Below are positions 9,917 to 34,313 of a DNA stretch of 64,000 bases, piece by piece. The translations under genes were made by a program, and so were the position numbers. Origin of the DNA: Thermoplasmatota archaeon (GTDB lineage: Archaea; Thermoplasmatota; Thermoplasmata; UBA10834); the NCBI GenBank assembly GCA_018818785.1, contig JAHIRF010000006.1:62001-126000 (forward strand), written 5' to 3'. A model generated the notes under the pieces. It was not told where the DNA came from. It saw only the letters and a list, made by a program, of their open reading frames with translations, and searched no databases. Within the stretch, counting starts at the first letter, position 1; each line of letters begins with the position of its first letter.

Positions 9917-10930
9917 TCACTTCCTCGCCACCATATGGCACGCGACCATATGGTTGTTCCCCACATCTATGAGCGGCGGCTCCTCGTTCCTGCAAATATC
10001 CTTTGCGAGCGAGCACCTGGGATTGAACCTGCAACCCTTCGGAGGATTGATAGGACTAGGCACCTCGCCTTCTATCCCCTTTCTCACCTTCAACCTCGTG
10101 GGGTCGGGGATAGGTATCGACGCGATCAAGGCCTGAGTGTAAGGATGGAGCGGATTGTTCAGGAACTCTGACGAGTTCGCTATCTCCACTATCTTGCCGA
10201 GATACATCACTGCTATCCTGTCGCTCATGTGCGCCACGACCGATAGGTCGTGGGATATGAACAGATAGGTGAGGCCGAGCCTGTGCTGAAGGCTCTTGAG
10301 CAGGTTGAGGGCCTGGGCCTGGACGGATACGTCCAACGCGGATGTCGGTTCGTCGAGGACCACCAGGTCGGGTTCTAGGGCGAGCGCACGCGCGAGCGCT
10401 ATCCTCTGCTTCTGCCCACCACTGAACTCGTGCGGAAGCCTGGACAGGTGGTCATGGGAGAGGCCGACCTCCTCGATGAGCTGGTGCACCTTCTCCCTTC
10501 TTGCGATGTATGGATCCCCTCCTGGCGGCCCGGGCGGTCCGTGGATGGCAAACCCCTCGCCGATTATCTTCTCCACCGTGAACCTGGGATCGAGGCTGGA
10601 ATAAGGGTCCTGAAATACTATCTGCATGCGCTTCCTCATCTTCCTCATCTGGGACGCCGACAATGCGGTGATATCCTTGCCATCGAAGATGATCTTCCCG
10701 CCAGTCGGCTCCACGAGCCTGAGGACAGTTCGTCCGTATGTGGTCTTGCCACAGCCAGACTCACCCACTAGCCCAAGGGTCTCGCCTCGCAGTATCTTGA
10801 GGTCTACCCCATCGACAGCGTGCACGTAGTCGACCGCCCTGCCGAACACGCCTTTCCTAACCGGGAAGAGTTTCTTTAGGGCCACCGTCTCCAGGAGCGG
10901 CCCCGGATTCTTCCTATCGTTAGCGCTCAT
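9917..10930 (-). CDS. oppF: oligopeptide ABC transporter ATP-binding protein, OppF-like
   Basis: A 337-residue ATPase that powers the peptide importer. It shows Walker A (GESGCGKTT), the ABC signature [15 protein letters not shown], Walker [13 protein letters not shown] and the switch His in LFISHDL, then the oligopeptide/dipeptide C-terminal domain with [14 protein letters not shown], whose cysteines belong to the metal-cluster motif of this family. The frame is open 37 codons further upstream, but the ATG at 10930 (MSANDRK) overlaps the oppD stop by 11 bases and fits the normal family N-terminus. It is the last gene of the five-gene operon. Confidence 0.92.
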
Positions 10931-11927
10931 CCGACTGCACACCTCCGTGCTTGTCATATAGATGACAGGAGACGAAATGCCCGGGCGATGCCTCGATCCT
11001 GGTCGGCCTGACTGCGCGGCAGACATCCATCGCGCTGTCACACCTATCCACGAATGAGCAGCCAGGGAACGCGTTCATCAGGTTCGGCACCGTGCCCCTG
11101 ATGACCGCCAGCTCGTCCTTCTTCTCCCCGAGCTTCGGGAAGGCCAACATCAGGCCGGAGGTGTACGGATGGAGAGGCCTCGCGAATATCTCCTTCGTGT
11201 CCGCCTCCTCGACGATCCTGCCTGCGTACATGATGCATATACGGTCGCAGGTTTCGGCGACCACGCCGAGGTTGTGAGTAATGAGTATCATCGAGCTGCC
11301 CGCCTTCTTGGCGAGCTCCTTGAGCAGGTTGAGTATCTGCGCCTGGATAGTGACATCCAAGGCCGTGGTGGGCTCATCAGCCAAGAGGAGGTCGGGTGAG
11401 CAGGATAGCGCGAGCGCGATCATGACCCGCTGTTTCATGCCCCCGCTGAGCTCGTGAGGATACTGCTTCATCACGCTCTTGGAATCGGCCATCTTGACGA
11501 GGTCGAGTATCTTGATTATCTCCTTCTCGAGCTCCTCCGGATCGTATATGCCCTGGTGAAGCGAGATCACCTCTCCAAGCTGGAAGCCGATGGTGAACAC
11601 GGGGTCGAGTGATGTCGATGGGTCCTGGAATATCATGGATATCCTCTTTCCCCGGACTCCCCGCATCTCGTCCATGGATAGTTTCATCAGGTCGATGCCC
11701 TTGAACTTAATCGAACCCGCCACTATCTTCCCAGGGGATGGCACCAGTCTCAGGATGGAGAAGGCAGTCATGCTCTTGCCGCACCCAGTCTCACCGACCA
11801 TGCCGACGGATTCTCCCTCGTATATGGTCAGGTCGATCCCGTCCAGGGCGGTCACGGTTCCCTCGTCCAGGAGGAACTGGGTCCTGAGGCCCTTTATCTC
11901 AAGAATGGGGGTCCCCTGCCCGCTCAT
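10920..11927 (-). CDS. oppD: oligopeptide ABC transporter ATP-binding protein, OppD-like
   Basis: A 335-residue ABC ATPase: Walker A GETGCGKSM, signature LSGGMKQRVMIALAL, Walker B LLLADEPTTALD, switch His ILITHNL, then the oligo_HPY-type C-terminal region with CSFVDRC. It pairs with OppF as the ATPase heterodimer under the two permeases. It overlaps oppC by 4 bases and oppF by 11, so translation is coupled. Length is normal for the family. The peptide preference cannot be read from the sequence. Confidence 0.93.
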   Translation of the reverse strand: MSGQGTPILEIKGLRTQFLLDEGTVTALDGIDLTIYEGESVGMVGETGCGKSMTAFSILRLVPSPGKIVAGSIKFKGIDLMKLSMDEMRGVRGKRISMIFQDPSTSLDPVFTIGFQLGEVISLHQGIYDPEELEKEIIKILDLVKMADSKSVMKQYPHELSGGMKQRVMIALALSCSPDLLLADEPTTALDVTIQAQILNLLKELAKKAGSSMILITHNLGVVAETCDRICIMYAGRIVEEADTKEIFARPLHPYTSGLMLAFPKLGEKKDELAVIRGTVPNLMNAFPGCSFVDRCDSAMDVCRAVRPTRIEASPGHFVSCHLYDKHGGVQSDER

Positions 11928-12832
11928 CTTCTCATCCCCTTCATGCGCGGGTCGAGCACATCACGCAGGCCATCACCCAGCAGGTTGAATCCGAGTATGG
12001 TCAGCAGCAGCACCAGCCCAGGGAAGGTGGATATCCAAGGAGCCTCTGAGAGGTATGTCATCCCGCGGAACAACATGTACCCCCAGCTAGGGGTCGGAGG
12101 TTGCGTGCCAACTCCCAGAAAGCTCAGGCTGCTCTCAATTGTGATGGCGTCTGCGACACCGATAGAAGCCCACACTATCAGCGGCGCGATGCAGTTGGGG
12201 AGCACATGCGAGAACATTATCCTCGGGTGCCTCGCACCCAGCGCCCGACTCGACTCGACGAACAACCTCTCGCGCACTGACAGAGCCTGTCCACGCATCA
12301 GTCGGGCGAACCCTGCCCAATAGGATATCGATATGGCAAGAATGACGTTCATCAGGCTGGGACCCAGGGCCGCTGCGAATGCCAACGCAAGCAGGAAGGC
12401 AGGAAAGGTCCAAAACAGATCGATCGTGCCCGCGATGATGTAGTCGACATAACGTCCGAAATATCCCGCCGTCAGGCCGAGCATGACGCCTATTATGAGC
12501 GAGAAGAAGATGGCGAGGGTCGCAACCGTGAGCGAGACTCGGGAACCCCATATGACTCTGCTGAATACATCCCGACCAAGTTCATCAGTGCCGAACCAGT
12601 GATCGGTCGATGGGGGCTGCAATTTCTCCTCTGGCACAAACATGGTCGGATCGGCCATCGGCAGGACCGGTGCGAGCAACGCGAGCGCGATTATGGTCAC
12701 GATTATCGTGGTGCCTACCACGACCATATTGTTCTTGCTCCCTCTTTCGACGATCTCGACGACGAGCTGTTTGGCGCCGCCAGACATCTTCCAGCTCAAT
12801 AGCCTGTCGTTGAGCGCTTTGCGGAACCTCAT
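11924..12832 (-). CDS. oppC: oligopeptide ABC transporter permease, OppC-like
   Basis: A 302-residue permease with an N-terminal helix, the OppC-type periplasm-side segment HWFGTDELGRDVFSRVIWGSR, and five further transmembrane helices. The EAA loop is RALGARHPRIMFSHVLPN, which contacts the ATPases. It overlaps oppB and oppD by 4 bases each. The conserved FGTDELGRD block distinguishes it from OppB. Confidence 0.93.
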   Translation of the reverse strand: MRFRKALNDRLLSWKMSGGAKQLVVEIVERGSKNNMVVVGTTIIVTIIALALLAPVLPMADPTMFVPEEKLQPPSTDHWFGTDELGRDVFSRVIWGSRVSLTVATLAIFFSLIIGVMLGLTAGYFGRYVDYIIAGTIDLFWTFPAFLLALAFAAALGPSLMNVILAISISYWAGFARLMRGQALSVRERLFVESSRALGARHPRIMFSHVLPNCIAPLIVWASIGVADAITIESSLSFLGVGTQPPTPSWGYMLFRGMTYLSEAPWISTFPGLVLLLTILGFNLLGDGLRDVLDPRMKGMRR

Positions 12833-13770
12833 CCCAACCTCACCCTTGGATCGACGAGCGCGTAGAGTATATCAGCGACAAGATTACCGATGACCACGAA
12901 AAACGCGAGTAGGAGTATGCAGCCCTGCACGGTGGGAAAATCATGGCTGCTGATGGAGTTTATCACGAGAAGACCAATCCCTGGCCATTGGAAGACCGTC
13001 TCGACTATGACTGCGCCGGCGACGAACCAACCTATGTCGAGACCGATGACAGTTACGACCGGTAGGATGGCGTTCTTGAGGGCATGTCTGAATATGACCT
13101 CCCGCTCGGGGAGGCCTCTCGAACGGAGCTGGGTTATGAAGTCCTGCCTCACGACCTCGAGCATGCTGGACCTCATCATCCTGGTGGTCAATGCAGCATT
13201 GCCTAGACCCAGCGTGAGAGCAGGTAGCAGCACGCTGCTTAACCCGCCGACCGTGCCCTCAGCGGGAAGGATATGGAATTGGACTGAGAGCAGGAGGAGC
13301 AGCAGGATGCCTAACCAGAAGGATGGCATGGCATAGGCTACCAGGGTGAAGACCATCACCGACCGGTCCTTCCAGCTGTTCTGATTCAATGCCGACAGGA
13401 TGCCCAGAGGTATTCCCAGGGAATACGATATCGTGAGACCGATGGCCATGAGCTCCAGCGTCTTAGGGAGCCGCTGCATCAGGAGATAGCTCACATCCAC
13501 GTTCAGAGTGCCAGTAGAGACCGATTGTCCCAGGTCACCTTGAAGGAGCCGCTCAAGGAACTTCCCGTACTGTATCAGGAACGGCTGGTCGAAGCCATAC
13601 TGTTCACGCAGCTCCTGCAGCTCATCCACAGACGCGTGCGGAGGAGCGATCGCGAGGATGGGGTCCCCGGGAGTCATATAGAGCATCAGAAAGACGATGA
13701 ATGTCGCGAGGAAGATCACGGGAATGGCCAGTAGAAGCTTCCGTATCACGTAAGATATCAGATCCGCCAT
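12829..13770 (-). CDS. oppB: oligopeptide ABC transporter permease, OppB-like
   Basis: A 313-residue permease with six transmembrane helices and the OppB-type N-terminal signature TFIVFLMLYMTPGDP. The EAA loop is SRGLPEREVIFRHALKN. A perfect Shine-Dalgarno site (GGAGGTGA) stands 3 bases before the ATG. It follows the binding-protein gene by 116 bases, within which the CAAACCCTTT motif lies, so OppA may be expressed at a different level from the rest. Confidence 0.93.
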   Translation of the reverse strand: MADLISYVIRKLLLAIPVIFLATFIVFLMLYMTPGDPILAIAPPHASVDELQELREQYGFDQPFLIQYGKFLERLLQGDLGQSVSTGTLNVDVSYLLMQRLPKTLELMAIGLTISYSLGIPLGILSALNQNSWKDRSVMVFTLVAYAMPSFWLGILLLLLLSVQFHILPAEGTVGGLSSVLLPALTLGLGNAALTTRMMRSSMLEVVRQDFITQLRSRGLPEREVIFRHALKNAILPVVTVIGLDIGWFVAGAVIVETVFQWPGIGLLVINSISSHDFPTVQGCILLLAFFVVIGNLVADILYALVDPRVRLG

Positions 13771-13859
13771 CCGTCACCTCCTCACACGATCGTCAGCCGT
13801 GTCCTCGAGCATCCTCCGTTGCATCTGCCCTCGTAAGCATATGAGGACGGAATGAAATG

Positions 13860-13875
13860 GTAAAGGGTTTGAGCG
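13860..13875 (-). terminator. CAAACCCTTT 3' motif after oppA
   Basis: On the minus strand CGCTCAAACCCTTTAC begins 11 nt after the oppA stop. It may end or process the oppA message before oppB, which would fit the usual excess of binding protein over permease (inference). Confidence 0.35.
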
Positions 13876-13886
13876 GGTTTATCGAC

Positions 13887-15614
13887 CTAATTCACTATGT
13901 CGACATCAACGATATCGATAGTCTGCTCCTGGCCCAGCGGATGGACATACCAGCCCGTGACGTGATCGTGCACCGCAACTATCTGATGCCAGAACAGGAT
14001 GGTCGCCCATGGGCCCTGAGTCAGCAGCCTTATGTGCCCTGCCGTGGCGTTGTCGGAGAACTGGTCCTCCGTCTCGGCGTATGTCCAGTTGGTCACATAG
14101 CCATCGAAGACATCATCCTCGTACCAACCAGTGTTGGACCCTCCCGAAGCCCATGTTCCGAAGTGCCAGTCAAGGATCTCGGCCCTCGGCCAGGAATACC
14201 AGAACAGGATCGCCTCCTGCTCCCCTGCAGCCGCCCTCGACCTCAGCTCAGTCTCGGAATACTGGGTCAAGGACACATGCAAGCCCACATCCTCCAGCTG
14301 ACTCTGGATTATCTCGGCCATCGAGACATCCTCGCCCTTGTTGGTCGTCCAAAGGTGCAGCGTCAACTCCTCGCCGTCCGCGTCCTCCAACCATACGTCG
14401 CTGTCGGTGTTGTCCCAGCCAGCCTCGAGGAAGTATGCCTCGGCCTTATCCACATCGTACGAGTAGTTGTATTGCGCAGGCACGTTCGTCGATTCGGGCT
14501 CGACCGGGGAGAGATAGTTCACTCCCTCCTCACCTATGCCGTTCCAGACAGTATCGAGTATCTGCGCCCTGTCTATCGCATAGCACACGGCAAGCCTCAA
14601 CGGTACGCTGGTCCATGGGGCCTTCTGGCAATTGAATTCGACATGGTAGGTTCCCTGTCCAGGTCCGGTTATGAGGGTCACATCGTCTTGCGCTTGGTAA
14701 GTCGGGACTCTGTTCGGCGGAACCTGCATCAGGATGTCTACCGATCCGGAATCGAAACCTGCGAGCCTCGCGGTCTGGTCGGTCATTACCCTGTAGATGA
14801 TCTTGTCGATCTTAGCCGGTCCCTTGTTAACGTACCATGATGCGCCCCAGTCGTAGTCCTCGTTCTTCACTAGCGTGATATGATCTCCCGCGACCCACTC
14901 CGATAGCTTGTACGGACCCGTCCCTATGACCTTGTGTCCTATCGTGCCGTAGTTATCTAGTCCATCCGACTCGAGAGCGTCCGGACCCATCATCGACCCG
15001 TACAGGTGGGACAGGTTGAATATCAACGCGACATCAGCCCAGGTCAGGTTCAATGTCATGGTGTAATCGGTCTTGCACCATATCCCAGCATCAGGCCAAC
15101 CAGTCTTATTCTGACATCCGAATATGCACCAGAACTCGTATTGCACCCAGCTGTCATCCGCAGAGTAGTAGTTGATGATCCTCTTGACCGCATCGGAGTT
15201 GAATGGCGTATCGTCGTGGAACTTCACTCCCTGCTTCAATGTCAAGTCGAGAGTGGCGTTGTACGGATAGTCAGTGTCCCTCTTGCTCGTGAGCAGCCAT
15301 GACTCGGCAAGACCGGGCACATAAGCGCCTGTCTTATCTCTTCCGATCAGAGTCTCATATATCATGCCCGGCGGACCGTACATGGCACTAGTCTTGGCAG
15401 GGTCCATCGTCTCCACATCGGAGCTCATGGCGATGACCAAGACTTTCTCGTCACTCGTTCCTCCAATCAATCCGAACGCCCACGCACCCGCGACCGCAGC
15501 GACTACGAGCACAAGAACGATTACGACCGCGACAAGAACCTTGCTCTTGGGTCGAACGGGTCTGGCTTTCGGCTGAGCGATCTCACTCTTTGGTTCACTT
15601 CCTGAACTCCCCAC
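13887..15614 (-). CDS. oppA: membrane-anchored oligopeptide-binding protein, OppA-like
   Basis: A 575-residue SBP_bac_5-type extracellular binding protein. A basic N-terminal stretch with Lys/Arg/Pro is followed by one hydrophobic helix (about residues 27-50) that anchors it to the membrane; the mature part begins with EKVLVIAMSSDVETMDPAKT and has the conserved YETLIG and IDRAQILDTVWNG segments of peptide-binding proteins. The start chosen is GTG at 15614, since GGAGGAG lies 7 bases before it; the frame is open further to an ATG at 15650. It is the first gene of the opp operon and has its own TATA-like box at 15735-15742. Confidence 0.9.
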   Translation of the reverse strand: MGSSGSEPKSEIAQPKARPVRPKSKVLVAVVIVLVLVVAAVAGAWAFGLIGGTSDEKVLVIAMSSDVETMDPAKTSAMYGPPGMIYETLIGRDKTGAYVPGLAESWLLTSKRDTDYPYNATLDLTLKQGVKFHDDTPFNSDAVKRIINYYSADDSWVQYEFWCIFGCQNKTGWPDAGIWCKTDYTMTLNLTWADVALIFNLSHLYGSMMGPDALESDGLDNYGTIGHKVIGTGPYKLSEWVAGDHITLVKNEDYDWGASWYVNKGPAKIDKIIYRVMTDQTARLAGFDSGSVDILMQVPPNRVPTYQAQDDVTLITGPGQGTYHVEFNCQKAPWTSVPLRLAVCYAIDRAQILDTVWNGIGEEGVNYLSPVEPESTNVPAQYNYSYDVDKAEAYFLEAGWDNTDSDVWLEDADGEELTLHLWTTNKGEDVSMAEIIQSQLEDVGLHVSLTQYSETELRSRAAAGEQEAILFWYSWPRAEILDWHFGTWASGGSNTGWYEDDVFDGYVTNWTYAETEDQFSDNATAGHIRLLTQGPWATILFWHQIVAVHDHVTGWYVHPLGQEQTIDIVDVDIVN

Positions 15615-15734
15615 CTTAACTCCTCCAGTCAACGAGGAAGCTCTCGGCACGAATGTCGAACGCTAAATAACAGGCCTTCGAACAACTCGCGACCTGCTTC
15701 CCCACATTAGCTATATTCGCATCGGCATCGGGCG

Positions 15735-19620: not shown

Positions 19621-22600
19621 ATGCAGATTAGCTCAAGTAAGAGGATCGGATTCGGGTGTTTTGTAGTCTTGATCGCAGTGGCCATGACGGCCGTATCATT
19701 CGCCTCGACGATTTCAGTCCAAGCTGAGGATGTGATGTTGGAATCGTCTGTGGAGAGTTATGTGCGAGTGGGTTGGCTGAGTGATGTCTACAGTTGGAAT
19801 CCGTTGACATCGACCATGGTGGAGGACTATGTCGTCAGCCATCTGATGTTCAGCACACTCTTCACATATGATCAGGATTGGAACGGCCCCGTCTGGGACT
19901 TGGCCACTGGATATTGGCAGATCGTCAATTCGCAGACGGGCAAGATGACAACATACATCAATATCACGACTACCGCATACTTCAGGAACTTGCAGAGTGT
20001 ATACGACGTAAGCCATCCGTTGACCGCAGAGGATGTTGCATTCACACTCAACCTTATCAGGGATAATCCTGGGGGAGCCTATGACTGGTATCTGCAGGAT
20101 GTCTCCAACATAACAGCCGTCAACACACGCACGGTCAGCATGGACACGCCCTATGCAAAGGCGACATTGATCGATGACCTCGCAGGCATTCCCATCGTTC
20201 CCAAGTACATATGGGAGGACATCTCAAGACCGCTTGGAGCTATGAGCCCGGGCACACTCGTCGGCAGCGGACCCTTCGTGTTTGAATCATACCTCAAGGG
20301 AGCATGGTGCAAGTTCATGACCGCGCCAAACTACCATGGACAGTCGGACTATGGCGCGTATAGGACCGTCAGTATCGGAGGCATACTCTATACGGTCTAT
20401 ACATCGACACAAGGATTGACCCTGGACATAAATTCTGGTGTGCAAGACTTCGTTGTCCTCACAGGGGACATGAGATCGTTCTTGGAAGCACTGGGTGCAG
20501 GGGCGAGTGTTAACGTCTATAAGGCCGCGGTCCAGGAACCAGGGATATGTGATATCGCAATCAATGCGATTCCGCAGAGCTTCCAGACCTCCACCTATGG
20601 GACACACCACCCCGCACTGAACGACCCAAATGTCAGGAAAGCGCTCATGATGACGCTGAACAAGGACTACATCGTCAACGTGACCCTTGAAGGATACGCC
20701 ACGGTGGGGTCATCGGTCATCCAGCCAGGATACTGGCAGGCCCAGATCGAGAACCAGTTGCCGTACGATCCCGTTGCAGCCAAGACATGGCTCATGACGC
20801 ACGGATGGAGCGCCGATGCAGACAGCGATGGCTACTTGGAAGCCACCGTAGGCAATGCTTACGGAGTGCCTGCTGGCACTGAGCTCAGTGGCATAAGATG
20901 CCAGGCACCTGATACCGACCCGACCTACGGAACCATCGCAATGGCGTGGCAGGGCTGGGCAAGGTCGGCAGGCATAGGATTTGTATCCACCATGGAGTCC
21001 GAGATCACAATGATCAATATCGCCTGGTACAAGGCGGATTACGACATCTGGGTCTGGCACTGGGGCTGGGGACCTGAGCCGCTCGGCGGCGCTCTCAGCT
21101 GCTGGCTCACCTCTGAGATTGAGACCGGCGGCGACAACTGCCAGATGCCGATGGGGCCGTGGTGGTATGATAAGACCAACTATACGCTCGCCCCCTCGGA
21201 ATGGGGATTGACTGGACCGTATTCCGCATACGATCAGAACTACACGCTTGCGATGGAAACGCTCAACATCGCCGATAGAAAGGTGACCGTCGATAAATTG
21301 CAGCAGTGGATATATGACTCTCACACGGAAAACCCGCCATACTACGACCTCGGCCTGTATGGATACACTGACGCGAGGTTCGACAATTGGGGAGATGTGA
21401 GCGGGCACTCTGGCCTGAACGTGGCATCCGATCTGCTCTGGATATGGTTCAATGTGAGGCCGGTCATAAACAGCGCGCCGCTATTTGCCTATGGATTGGA
21501 GGATGGCTATCTCACTCAGGTGAGTGACAGTATCACAATCTCGGTCAATGTATCAGACGCTGATGGTGACGATCTTGATGTCGTCTTCGACTTCGGGGAT
21601 GGCAGTACAGCCCAGTACACTCTGACTGGCGACACCACAATGCCAACGGGGGTCGTCACTGAACATGCGTATGAGATGGTCGGAGTCTATACTCTGTCCG
21701 TCTCGCTCACTGATAACTTCGTGGACCCGGTCTCCGGACCCAGGGACCCTATCGTGATGACATCGGTCGTCGAAGTGGTTGACGAACTGAATATGGCACC
21801 ATTGATCAGGACATTCGGCATAGACGACCCGCCACCGGCGAATGTCGGATACGATACGACCTGGACAATCGGCGCCTCGGACGCCGAATCGGATGAATAC
21901 GGCTTGAGGATAACATGGGATTGGGATGACGGAACCTATGACGTATATGACATAGCTCCGTTTCCAGCGAACGAAATCGTGCTCTGGGATGCGATCCATG
22001 CATGGGATCAGCCCGGGACATATCTTGTCGAGGTCAGCGTATGGGACAACTACGGTCTCGAATCTGGAATGCACAATGTCTCTATAACGACGAGCTATTG
22101 GATTCAGATCAACCAGCCGCCCGAGGGTCCGTATATCTACGACATATTGGCTACACCTGGCGTCCCAGAGACGTGCTACGCGGTTGCATATGATACGGGC
22201 TATGAACTATTGAAGTTCACTTGGGAATGGGACGATGGAACGTATACGATAGACGAGGTCTACTCGATTCCGGACCAGCCGACCTATTCCTCCGTCGTGC
22301 ACACCTGGTGGGACGAGGGAGCGTACCCTGTGACAGTCTGTGTCGATGACGGGGAGTTCAATGTCTCTGTCATCACTACCGCGTTTGTGAGCATTTCGAT
22401 GAACCCACCGAACGTCTGGTTCGACGTGTATCCTGGTGTAGGGACCACTGAGACATACTTCACCTTGGATCCATCGTACACGTGGGACATTGAGGACCCG
22501 TACAGCGCTCTGGTAGGCAGATGGGACTTCGAAGCGGACGGCGTCTGGGACACCCCATACGAGAGCCTAGAGGTCAAGTATGTGCAGTACGACACCATCG

Positions 22601-23271
22601 GGTTCAAAGACATCCTGTTGGAGGTCATGGACACCTCAGGGCTGACGTCCATCGCGAACAACACTCTGGTCGTCGACGACCAGGCACCCACAGCCGATGC
22701 CGGGCCTGACGCATCGATAGCCGTAGGAGATATCTACACCTTCGATGGCACGGGCTCGAGCGATGACCTCGGGATATCGTACTATCGTTGGACATTCGTC
22801 TACAACGGATATACCCAATACATGTTCGGGCCGACACCATCATTCATGTTCGATATCGAGGATGTGTACGCGGTCACCCTGACAGTGTGGGACCGAGCGG
22901 GCAGGACAGATACGGACACGATGGTGCTGACGGTATCTGATGCGATCGTCGTGACGAAGAACCAGGGAAGCTCCAAGGACAGCGTGATGAGCTGGGCGTA
23001 CACTCCGGATGAGAGCGGTGCCTGGATCGCGTGGATAGAGAACCATGGACTCAGATCTTTGACCATAGAGATCTACGATACATCGGGAAGTCAACAGACA
23101 CTGGTCGCAGAGATGAAGATACGGTTCAGCGCGTATGACGCATATCCGATTGGAATCGTCTGGACGGACGCCGTGCCGATGGATGCCGGGAAGACGTATC
23201 AGATAGTCGTGTCCCCACAGGGAAGCGAAGGGACATATGCGATCCTGAACCAGAAGTTCGTCGGATACTAA
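19621..23271 (+). CDS. orphan peptide-binding-type protein fused to PKD repeats
   Basis: A 1216-residue secreted protein. A signal peptide (1-35, ending VQA) leads into an SBP_bac_5-type solute-binding domain (about 45-610) with the usual WNPLTSTM, PLTAEDVAFTLNLI and PNVRKALMMTLNKDYI segments. From about 620 there are five PKD or PKD-like beta-sandwich repeats (recognisable by DFGDGS, WDWDDGTY, WEWDDGTY, WDFEADG, APTADAGPD) and a terminal beta domain (about 1106-1216). No transmembrane anchor is seen and no permease or ATPase genes adjoin it. It may capture peptides or polysaccharide at the surface and pass them to the opp importer (inference). Confidence 0.8.
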   Translation: MQISSSKRIGFGCFVVLIAVAMTAVSFASTISVQAEDVMLESSVESYVRVGWLSDVYSWNPLTSTMVEDYVVSHLMFSTLFTYDQDWNGPVWDLATGYWQIVNSQTGKMTTYINITTTAYFRNLQSVYDVSHPLTAEDVAFTLNLIRDNPGGAYDWYLQDVSNITAVNTRTVSMDTPYAKATLIDDLAGIPIVPKYIWEDISRPLGAMSPGTLVGSGPFVFESYLKGAWCKFMTAPNYHGQSDYGAYRTVSIGGILYTVYTSTQGLTLDINSGVQDFVVLTGDMRSFLEALGAGASVNVYKAAVQEPGICDIAINAIPQSFQTSTYGTHHPALNDPNVRKALMMTLNKDYIVNVTLEGYATVGSSVIQPGYWQAQIENQLPYDPVAAKTWLMTHGWSADADSDGYLEATVGNAYGVPAGTELSGIRCQAPDTDPTYGTIAMAWQGWARSAGIGFVSTMESEITMINIAWYKADYDIWVWHWGWGPEPLGGALSCWLTSEIETGGDNCQMPMGPWWYDKTNYTLAPSEWGLTGPYSAYDQNYTLAMETLNIADRKVTVDKLQQWIYDSHTENPPYYDLGLYGYTDARFDNWGDVSGHSGLNVASDLLWIWFNVRPVINSAPLFAYGLEDGYLTQVSDSITISVNVSDADGDDLDVVFDFGDGSTAQYTLTGDTTMPTGVVTEHAYEMVGVYTLSVSLTDNFVDPVSGPRDPIVMTSVVEVVDELNMAPLIRTFGIDDPPPANVGYDTTWTIGASDAESDEYGLRITWDWDDGTYDVYDIAPFPANEIVLWDAIHAWDQPGTYLVEVSVWDNYGLESGMHNVSITTSYWIQINQPPEGPYIYDILATPGVPETCYAVAYDTGYELLKFTWEWDDGTYTIDEVYSIPDQPTYSSVVHTWWDEGAYPVTVCVDDGEFNVSVITTAFVSISMNPPNVWFDVYPGVGTTETYFTLDPSYTWDIEDPYSALVGRWDFEADGVWDTPYESLEVKYVQYDTIGFKDILLEVMDTSGLTSIANNTLVVDDQAPTADAGPDASIAVGDIYTFDGTGSSDDLGISYYRWTFVYNGYTQYMFGPTPSFMFDIEDVYAVTLTVWDRAGRTDTDTMVLTVSDAIVVTKNQGSSKDSVMSWAYTPDESGAWIAWIENHGLRSLTIEIYDTSGSQQTLVAEMKIRFSAYDAYPIGIVWTDAVPMDAGKTYQIVVSPQGSEGTYAILNQKFVGY

Positions 23272-31429: not shown

Positions 31430-31517
31430 AGTCAGCATCAATTGAGATCCACCATACTGGCTATAAGAACTGGGTGCCTTGAATACATTATCAGATGCGA
31501 TAACGGCCATGCGCGGC

Positions 31518-31526
31518 TTTATAATC
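31518..31526 (+). promoter_or_regulatory. TATA box for the ABC exporter operon
   Basis: TTTATAATC is centred 36 nt before the TTG at 31558, giving a leader of about 10 nt. Confidence 0.45.
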
Positions 31527-31557: not shown

Positions 31558-32472
31558 TTGATAGAAACCACCGGCCTGGTCAAGGACTATAAGACTGTGA
31601 GGGCGCTCGACGAGATAAGCCTCAAGGTAGGCAGAGGAGAGATTTTCGGATTCTTCGGACCTAACGGTGCCGGAAAGACCACCGCGATCAAAGTGCTATG
31701 TGGACTCACCTCCGCTACGCAGGGCGATGCCTCCGTGATGGGCATAGACGTCATCAAGAGACCAGTGCACGTCAGGGACAACATCGCGATATTGAGTGAG
31801 GAGCCAAGGTTCTACGAGGAGATGTCACCACGCAGATACCTCAACATGTTCGGCAAGTTCATGCTGATGTCGAGGACGGAGAGGACTGCTGCCATAAACA
31901 GGGCTGCCGATCTCGCGGACCTCAGAGGGTACATAGACAGGAAGATTGGACAACTATCAATGGGACAGAGACAGAGGGTCTCTCTCGCAAGGGTGTTGAT
32001 GTCAGATGTTCCACTCATATTCCTGGATGAACCTTTCGAAGGAGTCGATATATTGCACAGACGGAAGCTGAGGGAGCACTTCAGACAGTACGTCGAAAAG
32101 GGAAACACGGTGTTCTTCACATCTCACAATCTGATCGAGGCGGAGCAGATCGTCGACCGCTTCGCGTTCATCCACAAAGGGAAGCTCATAGCAGTCGGTA
32201 CCGCGGAGGAGTTGAAGGAGAAGTACCTCGCGCCATCTTACCTCCTGCATGTCGCTGACCCGCAGAAGGCAAAGGAACTGCTGGATAGCAATCTGAGGCT
32301 CCAGTCGATCCAGATATCAGAAGGTAATGTATCCGTCGTGTTGCAGAGGAGGAGCGATGCCCCAATGGTCGCCAAGATACTTGTCGAAGGGGGTGTGGAC
32401 CTCTACGAGATGAAGACGACTGGCACGATGGAAGAGGTGTTCGAGAGGACTTCGAGGGGTGATTACCAATGA
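31558..32472 (+). CDS. ABC-2-type transporter ATP-binding protein
   Basis: A 304-residue ATPase. Walker A is GPNGAGKTT, the signature LSMGQRQRVSLARVL, Walker B LIFLDEPFEGVD and the switch His FFTSHNL. A C-terminal extension of about 80 residues follows, ending GTMEEVFERTSRGDYQ, as in DrrA/CcmA-type exporter ATPases. Start is TTG after a short leader. The stop overlaps the permease start by 4 bases (ATGA), so the two form a coupled pair. Substrate unknown. Confidence 0.9.
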   Translation: MIETTGLVKDYKTVRALDEISLKVGRGEIFGFFGPNGAGKTTAIKVLCGLTSATQGDASVMGIDVIKRPVHVRDNIAILSEEPRFYEEMSPRRYLNMFGKFMLMSRTERTAAINRAADLADLRGYIDRKIGQLSMGQRQRVSLARVLMSDVPLIFLDEPFEGVDILHRRKLREHFRQYVEKGNTVFFTSHNLIEAEQIVDRFAFIHKGKLIAVGTAEELKEKYLAPSYLLHVADPQKAKELLDSNLRLQSIQISEGNVSVVLQRRSDAPMVAKILVEGGVDLYEMKTTGTMEEVFERTSRGDYQ

Positions 32473-34313
32473 CGCCCGCACCGCCTCCACCGAATGACGA
32501 TGAGCTGCCTCCGCCACCTTCGGACATGGCTGAGGAGACGAATCACTATCCAGGGATCAAGATCAAGAAATCCGGCACATTCGCGACACTTCGCAGAGCC
32601 GTGACGATATTCGAAAAAGACCTGAGGACGATGGCGAAGCATGGGCTCATAAGTTCTGTCGTCCTGCTGATCTTCCTCGCGCTGATATTCTACATCGCGA
32701 GCTATACGATGACATTCGCGTTGACATTCGAGTTCGGAGAGGGCGAAGACGGGATGTCCATACCAGGTGCGACCGAGAACATCCCTCCGATCGCTGATGC
32801 TGGCGCCTATGGAACCAGGGATGCAGGGGAGACTGTGGCGCTAGACGCGTCCGGATCCACAGACAACGCTGAAATCGTCTACTATATCTGGAGCTTCAGA
32901 GATTCAGAACGAGATATCGAACTCTACGGAGAGATTGTCCAATACACGTTCATGGCCGCAGGGACGTACAACATAAATCTGGTCGTGGTAGATAGTTCAT
33001 GGAACATGGATGAGGATGAGACGACCATCACCGTCATGAGCACCGGAACGGATAACGAATCGCCGATCTCGAACCCGGCGTCAGTCTCCGATATAAACGC
33101 GGGAAGCGTGGCATCATTCGATGGCTCCGGATCCTACGATGATGTTGGTGTGATCAACTACACCTGGACGTTCTATGATTATCGAGATATCGCATTGTAC
33201 GGTGTTTCCCCTGAATATCGATTCCAGAACGCAGGGTCCTATTGGGTATCTCTGACCGTGAGGGACGCTTCGGGGAACATCGGCCAGAATGGGTTCAATG
33301 TCAATGTGGCGCAGACCGGGTTTGAGGATTACAATCAACCAGAAGCGCGTATATCCACCGACGAGCTGATCAACCAAGGAGACACTGTCACCCTTGACGC
33401 AACGGAATCCTGGGACGACCGAGAGATAGTCGCGTACACATGGTATGTCAAGCAGAATGCGACCACAATGGTCTACACCGGAGAGACTGCGATATTCACC
33501 GCGGACCATTGGGGACCTTATGACGTCACCTTGGTAGTCAGGGATGCCGCTGGCAACGCAGGGAGCGAAGAGACGATGATCATCGCACTCCCCCTCGGAA
33601 TCGATGTGGACGCGATCCCATGGACTGCGACGCCGTTCGGTCAGGATGTCTCGTTCAACCTGCTGACTTTCGCGTACGGTGCCGCGCTCCTCGCATCGGT
33701 CATCTACATAGGCGGCCTGTTCGCAAAGGGATTCGCCCACGAGATACAGAAGGGTACATTGAAGATCCTGTTCTTCGGACCTATCTCTGTCACGACGATG
33801 ATCTTCTCGAAGATACTCTATCCGATCGTGGTGGGGCCGATATTCATCTTCCCGTTAGTCCTGATATCGCTGTCACCATTCGACCAGTCCGCGAACGACA
33901 TACTCATGATAACGCTGGTATCGTACATACTGGCCGTGCTCACGATGGTATCCGCGGCTTATGGGTCATGCCTCATCTATTTCGGCGCCAAGAGGATGGT
34001 CCTCAAGCCGACCGTCGTCTCCAGGATGTTCATGTACTTTTCACTCATGGGCACGATGACCGTCTTCGAGTGGCTCTCGTTCCTGTTCGACCAATGGTTC
34101 AAAACTAGCTACTGGGGCGACCTATACCTTAGCCATGGGTCGACGATCGCAATATTCTCTCCGTTCCATCAGGGAGGGGTGTTGCTGTCGAACATGATGA
34201 CAGGCAGCGAAAAAGTCCCGGACTGGGGCGTGTTCATCATACCCGTCCTGCTCATAGTACTCGGAGTGCTCGCATCGCGCAAGCTATACCCGGACCTGTT
34301 CACTAGAGAATAG
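32469..34313 (+). CDS. ABC-2 permease with three PKD domains in the first outside loop
   Basis: A 614-residue permease. A Pro-rich cytoplasmic N-terminus (1-30) precedes transmembrane helix 1 (about 57-85). Three PKD domains then lie between helices 1 and 2: 105-190 (IPPIADAG, ALDASGS), 198-281 (SFDGSGSYDD, YTWTFYD) and 289-374 (TLDATESWDD, YTWYV). About five helices follow (397-418, 445-468, 474-496, 518-540, 586-603), giving the ABC-2 layout. PKD domains face outside and usually bind polysaccharide or protein. Such a large domain array inside an ABC-2 permease is unusual. Partner of the overlapping ATPase. Confidence 0.8.
   Translation: MTPAPPPPNDDELPPPPSDMAEETNHYPGIKIKKSGTFATLRRAVTIFEKDLRTMAKHGLISSVVLLIFLALIFYIASYTMTFALTFEFGEGEDGMSIPGATENIPPIADAGAYGTRDAGETVALDASGSTDNAEIVYYIWSFRDSERDIELYGEIVQYTFMAAGTYNINLVVVDSSWNMDEDETTITVMSTGTDNESPISNPASVSDINAGSVASFDGSGSYDDVGVINYTWTFYDYRDIALYGVSPEYRFQNAGSYWVSLTVRDASGNIGQNGFNVNVAQTGFEDYNQPEARISTDELINQGDTVTLDATESWDDREIVAYTWYVKQNATTMVYTGETAIFTADHWGPYDVTLVVRDAAGNAGSEETMIIALPLGIDVDAIPWTATPFGQDVSFNLLTFAYGAALLASVIYIGGLFAKGFAHEIQKGTLKILFFGPISVTTMIFSKILYPIVVGPIFIFPLVLISLSPFDQSANDILMITLVSYILAVLTMVSAAYGSCLIYFGAKRMVLKPTVVSRMFMYFSLMGTMTVFEWLSFLFDQWFKTSYWGDLYLSHGSTIAIFSPFHQGGVLLSNMMTGSEKVPDWGVFIIPVLLIVLGVLASRKLYPDLFTRE

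Follow-up and report, generated by a model that had tools for sequence, protein, structure and literature searches.

What does an archaeal ABC-2-type permease do with three PKD domains in its first outside loop? The window analysed here, a 64,000-nucleotide stretch of contig JAHIRF010000006.1, comes from a Thermoplasmatota archaeon (1.97-Mb genome in 12 contigs, 94.5% complete) and contains an ATPase gene followed directly by such a permease gene. The initial annotation suggested that the pair is an ABC-2 exporter that grips polysaccharide or S-layer cargo on the outside of the cell. The single frame, the exporter class and the placement of the PKD domains in loop 1 held up; the cargo-gripping part did not. 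The reading that we prefer, with a probability of about one half, is a two-gene exporter of the ABCA/DrrA type in which the PKD cassette anchors or places the transporter in the cell surface rather than selecting its cargo, and in which a cytoplasmic ELPPPP tail docks a partner. The features of the pair are:

31558..32472, + strand: ABC ATPase, ABCA/DrrA-like, 304 aa, TTG start (ABC_tran, 5e-28)
32469..34313, + strand: ABC-2-type permease with PKD insertion, 614 aa
32502..32519, + strand: E-L-P-P-P-P in the cytoplasmic Pro-rich N-tail, residues 12-17
32646..32720, + strand: transmembrane helix 1 (TM1), residues about 60-84, by hydropathy
32784..33038, + strand: PKD domain 1, residues 106-190 (HMM; AF2 pLDDT 95.8; Foldseek to PKD domains)
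33057..33311, + strand: PKD domain 2, residues 197-281 (HMM), with invariant sequon N230
33333..33587, + strand: PKD domain 3, residues 289-373 (HMM), with invariant sequon N330
33657..34310, + strand: transmembrane helices 2-6, residues 397-614, by hydropathy and homology to the PKD-less permeases of family f23
33738..33782, + strand: ABC-2 cytoplasmic motif H-E-x3-G-T-x7-P, residues 424-438, following TM2, where coupling to the ATPase is expected

The two ORFs share 4 bases (ATGA), and hydropathy together with profile matches gives the permease the order Pro-rich N-tail, TM1, three PKD domains and TM2-6, that is, one helix before the PKD domains and five after them. Pfam PKD_4 matches the permease frame in three stretches (7.2e-35); the boundaries were placed by our own PKD profile. 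A single-sequence AF2 model of the whole permease (pLDDT 38.5) agrees with hydropathy in the order of helices and strands and is otherwise meaningless. An orthologous match is present in 13 of the 18 other genomes of the family (14 of 19 counting the host's own). Full-length permeases number nine including that of the window, and the other eight align with it end to end at 47-63% identity; the same architecture and gene order are found in full-length orthologs of three genera. Separate assemblies thus give full-length orthologs of like architecture, which rules out an assembly fusion of two genes. The overlap, the helix count and the three PKD domains within one frame were all described in the initial annotation and are confirmed here. 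The PKD-bearing pair is a real, conserved and family-restricted version of a known transporter design, not a new kind of system.

The ATPase has intact motifs (Walker A GPNGAGKT, signature LSMGQ, Walker B LIFLDEP, H-loop TSH), and the solved chains nearest to it in the PDB are those of ABCA1, ABCA3, ABCA4 and ABCA7 (6e-52). Its best NCBIfam model is DrrA (TIGR01188, 1.8e-63), with a score of 214.7 against a cut-off of 312.45, which leaves it outside the DrrA subfamily at that cut-off. The permease has the six helices and the E-x3-G-T-x7-P motif after TM2 that characterize an ABC-2 permease. The window permease had no match to the Pfam ABC2 models at E<1; ABC2_membrane_4 was matched, below its curated cut-off, by the orthologs (0.0013-0.55) and by a PKD-less homolog (7.8e-6). 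A profile of the membrane part gave no match to PDB sequences. There is good support for placing the pair among the ABC-2, ABCA/DrrA-like exporters, and from this family we infer that it would export a small lipid-like or hydrophobic compound.

Two known systems are close enough for comparison. DrrAB-type ABC-2 exporters (daunorubicin resistance) resemble the pair in that the drrA model scores its ATPase best and in that the ATPase gene lies directly before the permease gene; unlike them, the window ATPase falls below the drrA cut-off and the window permease has a large first loop, which to our knowledge typical DrrAB-type permeases lack. The ABCA (type V) lipid exporters, such as ABCA1 and ABCA4, have the nearest solved ATPases and a similar six-helix membrane half, and ABCA proteins carry a large exocytoplasmic domain between TM1 and TM2 (PMC8501128). 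The window permease has an exocytoplasmic domain at this very site. However, the domain consists of three PKDs and does not have the ABCA fold, and the pair is half-size, encoded by separate ATPase and permease genes instead of one full-length chain with fused TMD and NBD.

A TM2-TM6 profile run on 400 genomes of the class gave close matches in the host's own family and in family f23, plus three weak ones, and no PKD-bearing homolog of the permease was found outside the family among these genomes. The f23 pair (loci L040-L043 and L055-L060) is similar to the window pair in its ATPase (46% identical) and its permease (21-25%), but the f23 permease is about 290 aa long, its loop 1 measures about 35 aa, and it has neither a PKD nor an ELPPPP tail. 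The residues E425, G429, T430 and P438, which make up the E-x3-GT-x7-P motif after TM2, are invariant in an alignment that includes the PKD-less homologs. Common invariant residues, these four among them, identify the membrane parts of the two kinds of permease as homologous, so that a common permease gained the PKDs or, by a less simple route, lost them. With the short loop 1 of the f23 permease, the PKDs seem to have been inserted into a pre-existing ABC-2 permease. The comparison indicates that an ABC-2 permease can gain a ready-made surface domain at the site of the ABCA domain, which makes the first loop an insertion point filled differently by lineage, and the natural versions with and without PKDs form a small system for probing what an exocytoplasmic domain in the first loop does.

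Elsewhere in the class, ABC-2 permeases (PF12679) carry CarboxypepD_reg, Big_1 or Fn3-like domains in loop 1, and given these beta-sandwich domains the filling of loop 1 happened more than once. The Thermoplasmata ABC2_membrane_2 permeases with such domains (for example L109, L111, L112 and L114) are like the window permease in having a TM1-TM2 region of ~200-300 aa, a beta-sandwich in several of them, but they belong to a different subfamily (PF12679) and use a different domain type; the likeness of their loop-1 domains to the PKD cassette is probably convergent. Large first-loop domains, some of them unassigned, were also seen in ABC-2 permeases of other Thermoplasmata families (L105-L114 and L118). 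Among the matches listed, no PKD was found in the other ABC-2 permeases at 16 class loci chosen for long frames or match spans, and no PF12698 match in 194 genomes of the phylum had a span long enough for a PKD cassette. We found no paper on PKD-bearing ABC-2 permeases in the open-access literature.

The assignment of the loop domains to the PKD family rests on the HMM match and on a PKD beta-sandwich model. A PKD1 model built from seven PKD sequences (taken from the window and L027) had as its top PDB matches in Foldseek the PKD domains of AAVR, ColG and ColH, and the archaeal surface-layer protein 1l0q was also among the matches. The linkers that join the cassette to the membrane are about 20 residues long at each end; since both ends are held at the membrane by short linkers, the three PKDs should form an arch. 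Loop 1 with its PKDs should lie on the outer face. It is acidic in 9/9 proteins (25-56 D+E versus 7-16 K+R), and the sequons N230 and N330 are present in 9/9 full-length permeases. Across the orthologs there are 36 sequons in 2872 loop residues versus 2 in 2750 residues elsewhere, yet the loops have no excess of sequons over shuffled loops; glycosylation as proof of the outside location was accordingly rejected.

If the PKDs gripped cargo, as the initial annotation proposed, they would bind a polysaccharide or S-layer protein as it emerges. The modelled resemblance of PKD1 to collagenase PKDs and to the PKD of an archaeal surface-layer protein is consistent with such a role, and a position over the pore would suit it. 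However, mean identity across the full-length orthologs is 45-51% for the PKDs, compared with 66% for the membrane part and 53% for the N-tail, and the invariant PKD residues are chiefly at PKD core positions. With invariants mostly in the core and PKDs that diverge faster than the membrane part, a specific cargo-binding surface is not indicated, and the recurrence of loop-1 beta-sandwich domains in ABC-2 permeases of the class speaks against it too. The permeases gave no match to the Wzm-type ABC2_membrane model, and the Pfam-annotated genes around the pair include no glycan or S-layer partner; the conserved glycan or S-layer neighbours of a Wzm-Wzt-like exporter are missing here. We therefore consider cargo gripping quite unlikely, and a dedicated polysaccharide or S-layer export system does not emerge from the conserved neighbourhood.

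Anchoring in the surface, our preferred role for the cassette, fits a genome in which PKD is a generic surface module, a fact that also weighs against dedicated cargo gripping. Together with the recurrent loop-1 domains and the faster divergence of the PKDs, it points to a general surface role. PKDs are carried there by a peptide-type, family-5 solute-binding protein, a zinc carboxypeptidase, a PLD-like protein, a 1346-aa repeat protein and a second long PKD-array protein. The nearest PKDs to those of the permease in this genome are in large surface proteins, at best 42-51% identical to single permease PKDs. The family-5 extracellular solute-binding protein, encoded in the window at 19621-23271, has four PKD domains on its C-terminal side; an oligopeptide ABC transporter about 4 kb away (9917-15650) has a separate binding protein, which lacks PKDs.

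Upstream of the pair, two candidate regulatory elements were found:

31488..31503, + strand: dyad TTATCA-N4-(T/C)GATA(A/T), putative operator preceding the TATA-like box
31518..31525, + strand: TATA-like box TTTATAAT, about 33-40 bp ahead of the TTG start; orthologs have an A/T-rich box in this position too

The position of the TATA-like box suggests that the leader is short and that the pair does not share a promoter with the oxidoreductase gene upstream. The dyad TTATCA-N4-TGATA(T/C)C precedes the TATA-like box in eight other aligned orthologous promoters, and the window copy differs from the exact consensus; the core TTATCA-N4-TGATA was noted at this place in L029-L037. Exact matches in the 19 genomes fall at the ABC-pair promoter in 10 of 18 cases, compared with a single match for the control. 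The eight remaining exact sites lie at unrelated genes with no common function, and a wider dyad regulon in these genomes was rejected. One-mismatch sites in the host's own genome (25 versus 4 for a control with differing dinucleotides) are not interpretable. The dyad is likely a regulator site of the ABC pair.

The Pfam-annotated neighbours are AFOR, TauE, AAT, a NifX-like protein (not over the cut-off) and an aldehyde dehydrogenase. Neither among them nor in the synteny survey was a glycosyltransferase, an S-layer gene, a sortase or another third partner conserved beside the pair, so the survey for a third partner gene that the initial annotation had proposed gave no dedicated candidate in related genomes. 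One neighbour alone is constant, an aldehyde ferredoxin oxidoreductase, and the order oxidoreductase-ATPase-permease is kept wherever the contig extends far enough. Synteny extends over the entire surrounding region, and a TATA-like box and dyad belong to the pair itself; the oxidoreductase is thus probably a separate unit and was rejected as a dedicated third partner.

In three g2 genomes, a gene for a GyrI-like small-molecule-binding protein lies between the oxidoreductase and the dyad (L032 1669-2139, L035 12795-13268 and L036 2811-3398). It is not beside the window's pair, and a truncated copy is present in genome G007; it may hint at the type of compound that the pair transports. In the G007 scar (L039 9810-10117), the first half of the GyrI-like gene runs directly into the final ~52 permease residues. 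A single deletion there removed the ATPase, the promoter and most of the permease, with intact flanks; the pair was thus lost as a unit and is dispensable.

These observations bear on whether the pair is a DrrAB-like exporter for multidrug resistance or self-protection against an antibiotic, with the PKD loop as a neutral lineage decoration. The GyrI-like gene directly upstream in the g2 genomes, with its truncated remnant in G007, would fit such an exporter, as would the regulated expression suggested by the conserved dyad and an ATPase nearest, among NCBIfam models and below cut-off, to the DrrA subfamily model. Every full-length ortholog keeps three PKDs, however, which is unlikely for a neutral insert, and the window's copy has no GyrI-like gene next to it. 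Drug export or self-protection is a possibility to which we give less weight than to the surface-anchored exporter.

The ELPPPP tail adds a second line of comparison. E-L-P-P-P-P is invariant in 9/9 permeases. DNA matches in the 19 family genomes number 42 for [DE][LF]PPPP, 29 for [DE][AV]PPPP and 2 for K[LF]PPPP, raw counts that are overstated because some matches lie in short or antisense frames. About 18 of the matches are within 14 residues of the C-terminus of membrane-helix proteins, for example EELPPPPEDGEL-end and EEVPPPPKE-end. Five of these C-terminal motif proteins are of the surface type, each with about five PKDs, one helix and a PPPP tail, and in KaiC-like ATPases and zinc-ribbon membrane proteins the motif is slightly farther from the end. 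Many membrane proteins of the family have an acidic-[L/V/A]-PPPP-x-acidic pattern at their cytoplasmic end or close to it (loci L121, L130, L132, L135, L141, L148, L153, L166, L172, L177, L186, L187, L194, L196-L198, L200, L203, L205 and L206). With PKDs outside and the PPPP motif inside, the permease has both marks of a class of surface proteins.

For the exporter anchored in the surface, we propose the following mechanism. Two ATPase and two permease copies would make up the working complex, and, to judge from the family, ATP binding and hydrolysis would drive a small lipid-like or hydrophobic compound out through the six-helix permease. The PKD cassette, absent from relatives elsewhere, sits between TM1 and TM2 at the site of the ABCA exocytoplasmic domain. 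Its three rod-like PKDs probably form an arch, and two such arches would rise over the pore; the job of the cassette is probably to position or fix the transporter in a cell surface rich in PKDs and not to choose the cargo. The acidic ELPPPP tail probably docks a cytoplasmic partner common to the PKD surface proteins. A tail motif common to a KaiC-like ATPase and surface proteins could also be reconciled with a signalling or sensing pair, in which the PKD loop would respond to a ligand or to strain at the surface and pass the signal inward by way of the ATPase and the Pro-rich tail, with no net transport. However, the ATPase motifs are intact and the ABC-2 coupling motif is standard, and we regard this as highly improbable.

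Taken beyond the exporter, the PPPP motif might be a lineage-specific docking tag whose reader, a putative archaeal polyproline-binding protein, would bring the exporter and the surface proteins together in one membrane assembly, an idea that we put forward as rather doubtful. Polyproline motifs in Escherichia coli are overrepresented close to starts and on the downstream side of membrane helices (PMC5811046), and the motif could be read as a translation pause instead; a pause would leave the conserved acidic residues and the extreme C-terminal position unexplained. If it is a docking tag, the terminal PPPP motif would be an unrecognised organising principle of archaeal membrane proteins; it is a more surprising lead than the PKD loop and, although a side finding, perhaps the more important one. 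A long acidic Pro-rich N-tail was also observed in a large-loop ABC-2 permease of a different Thermoplasmata family (L112 309-2159).
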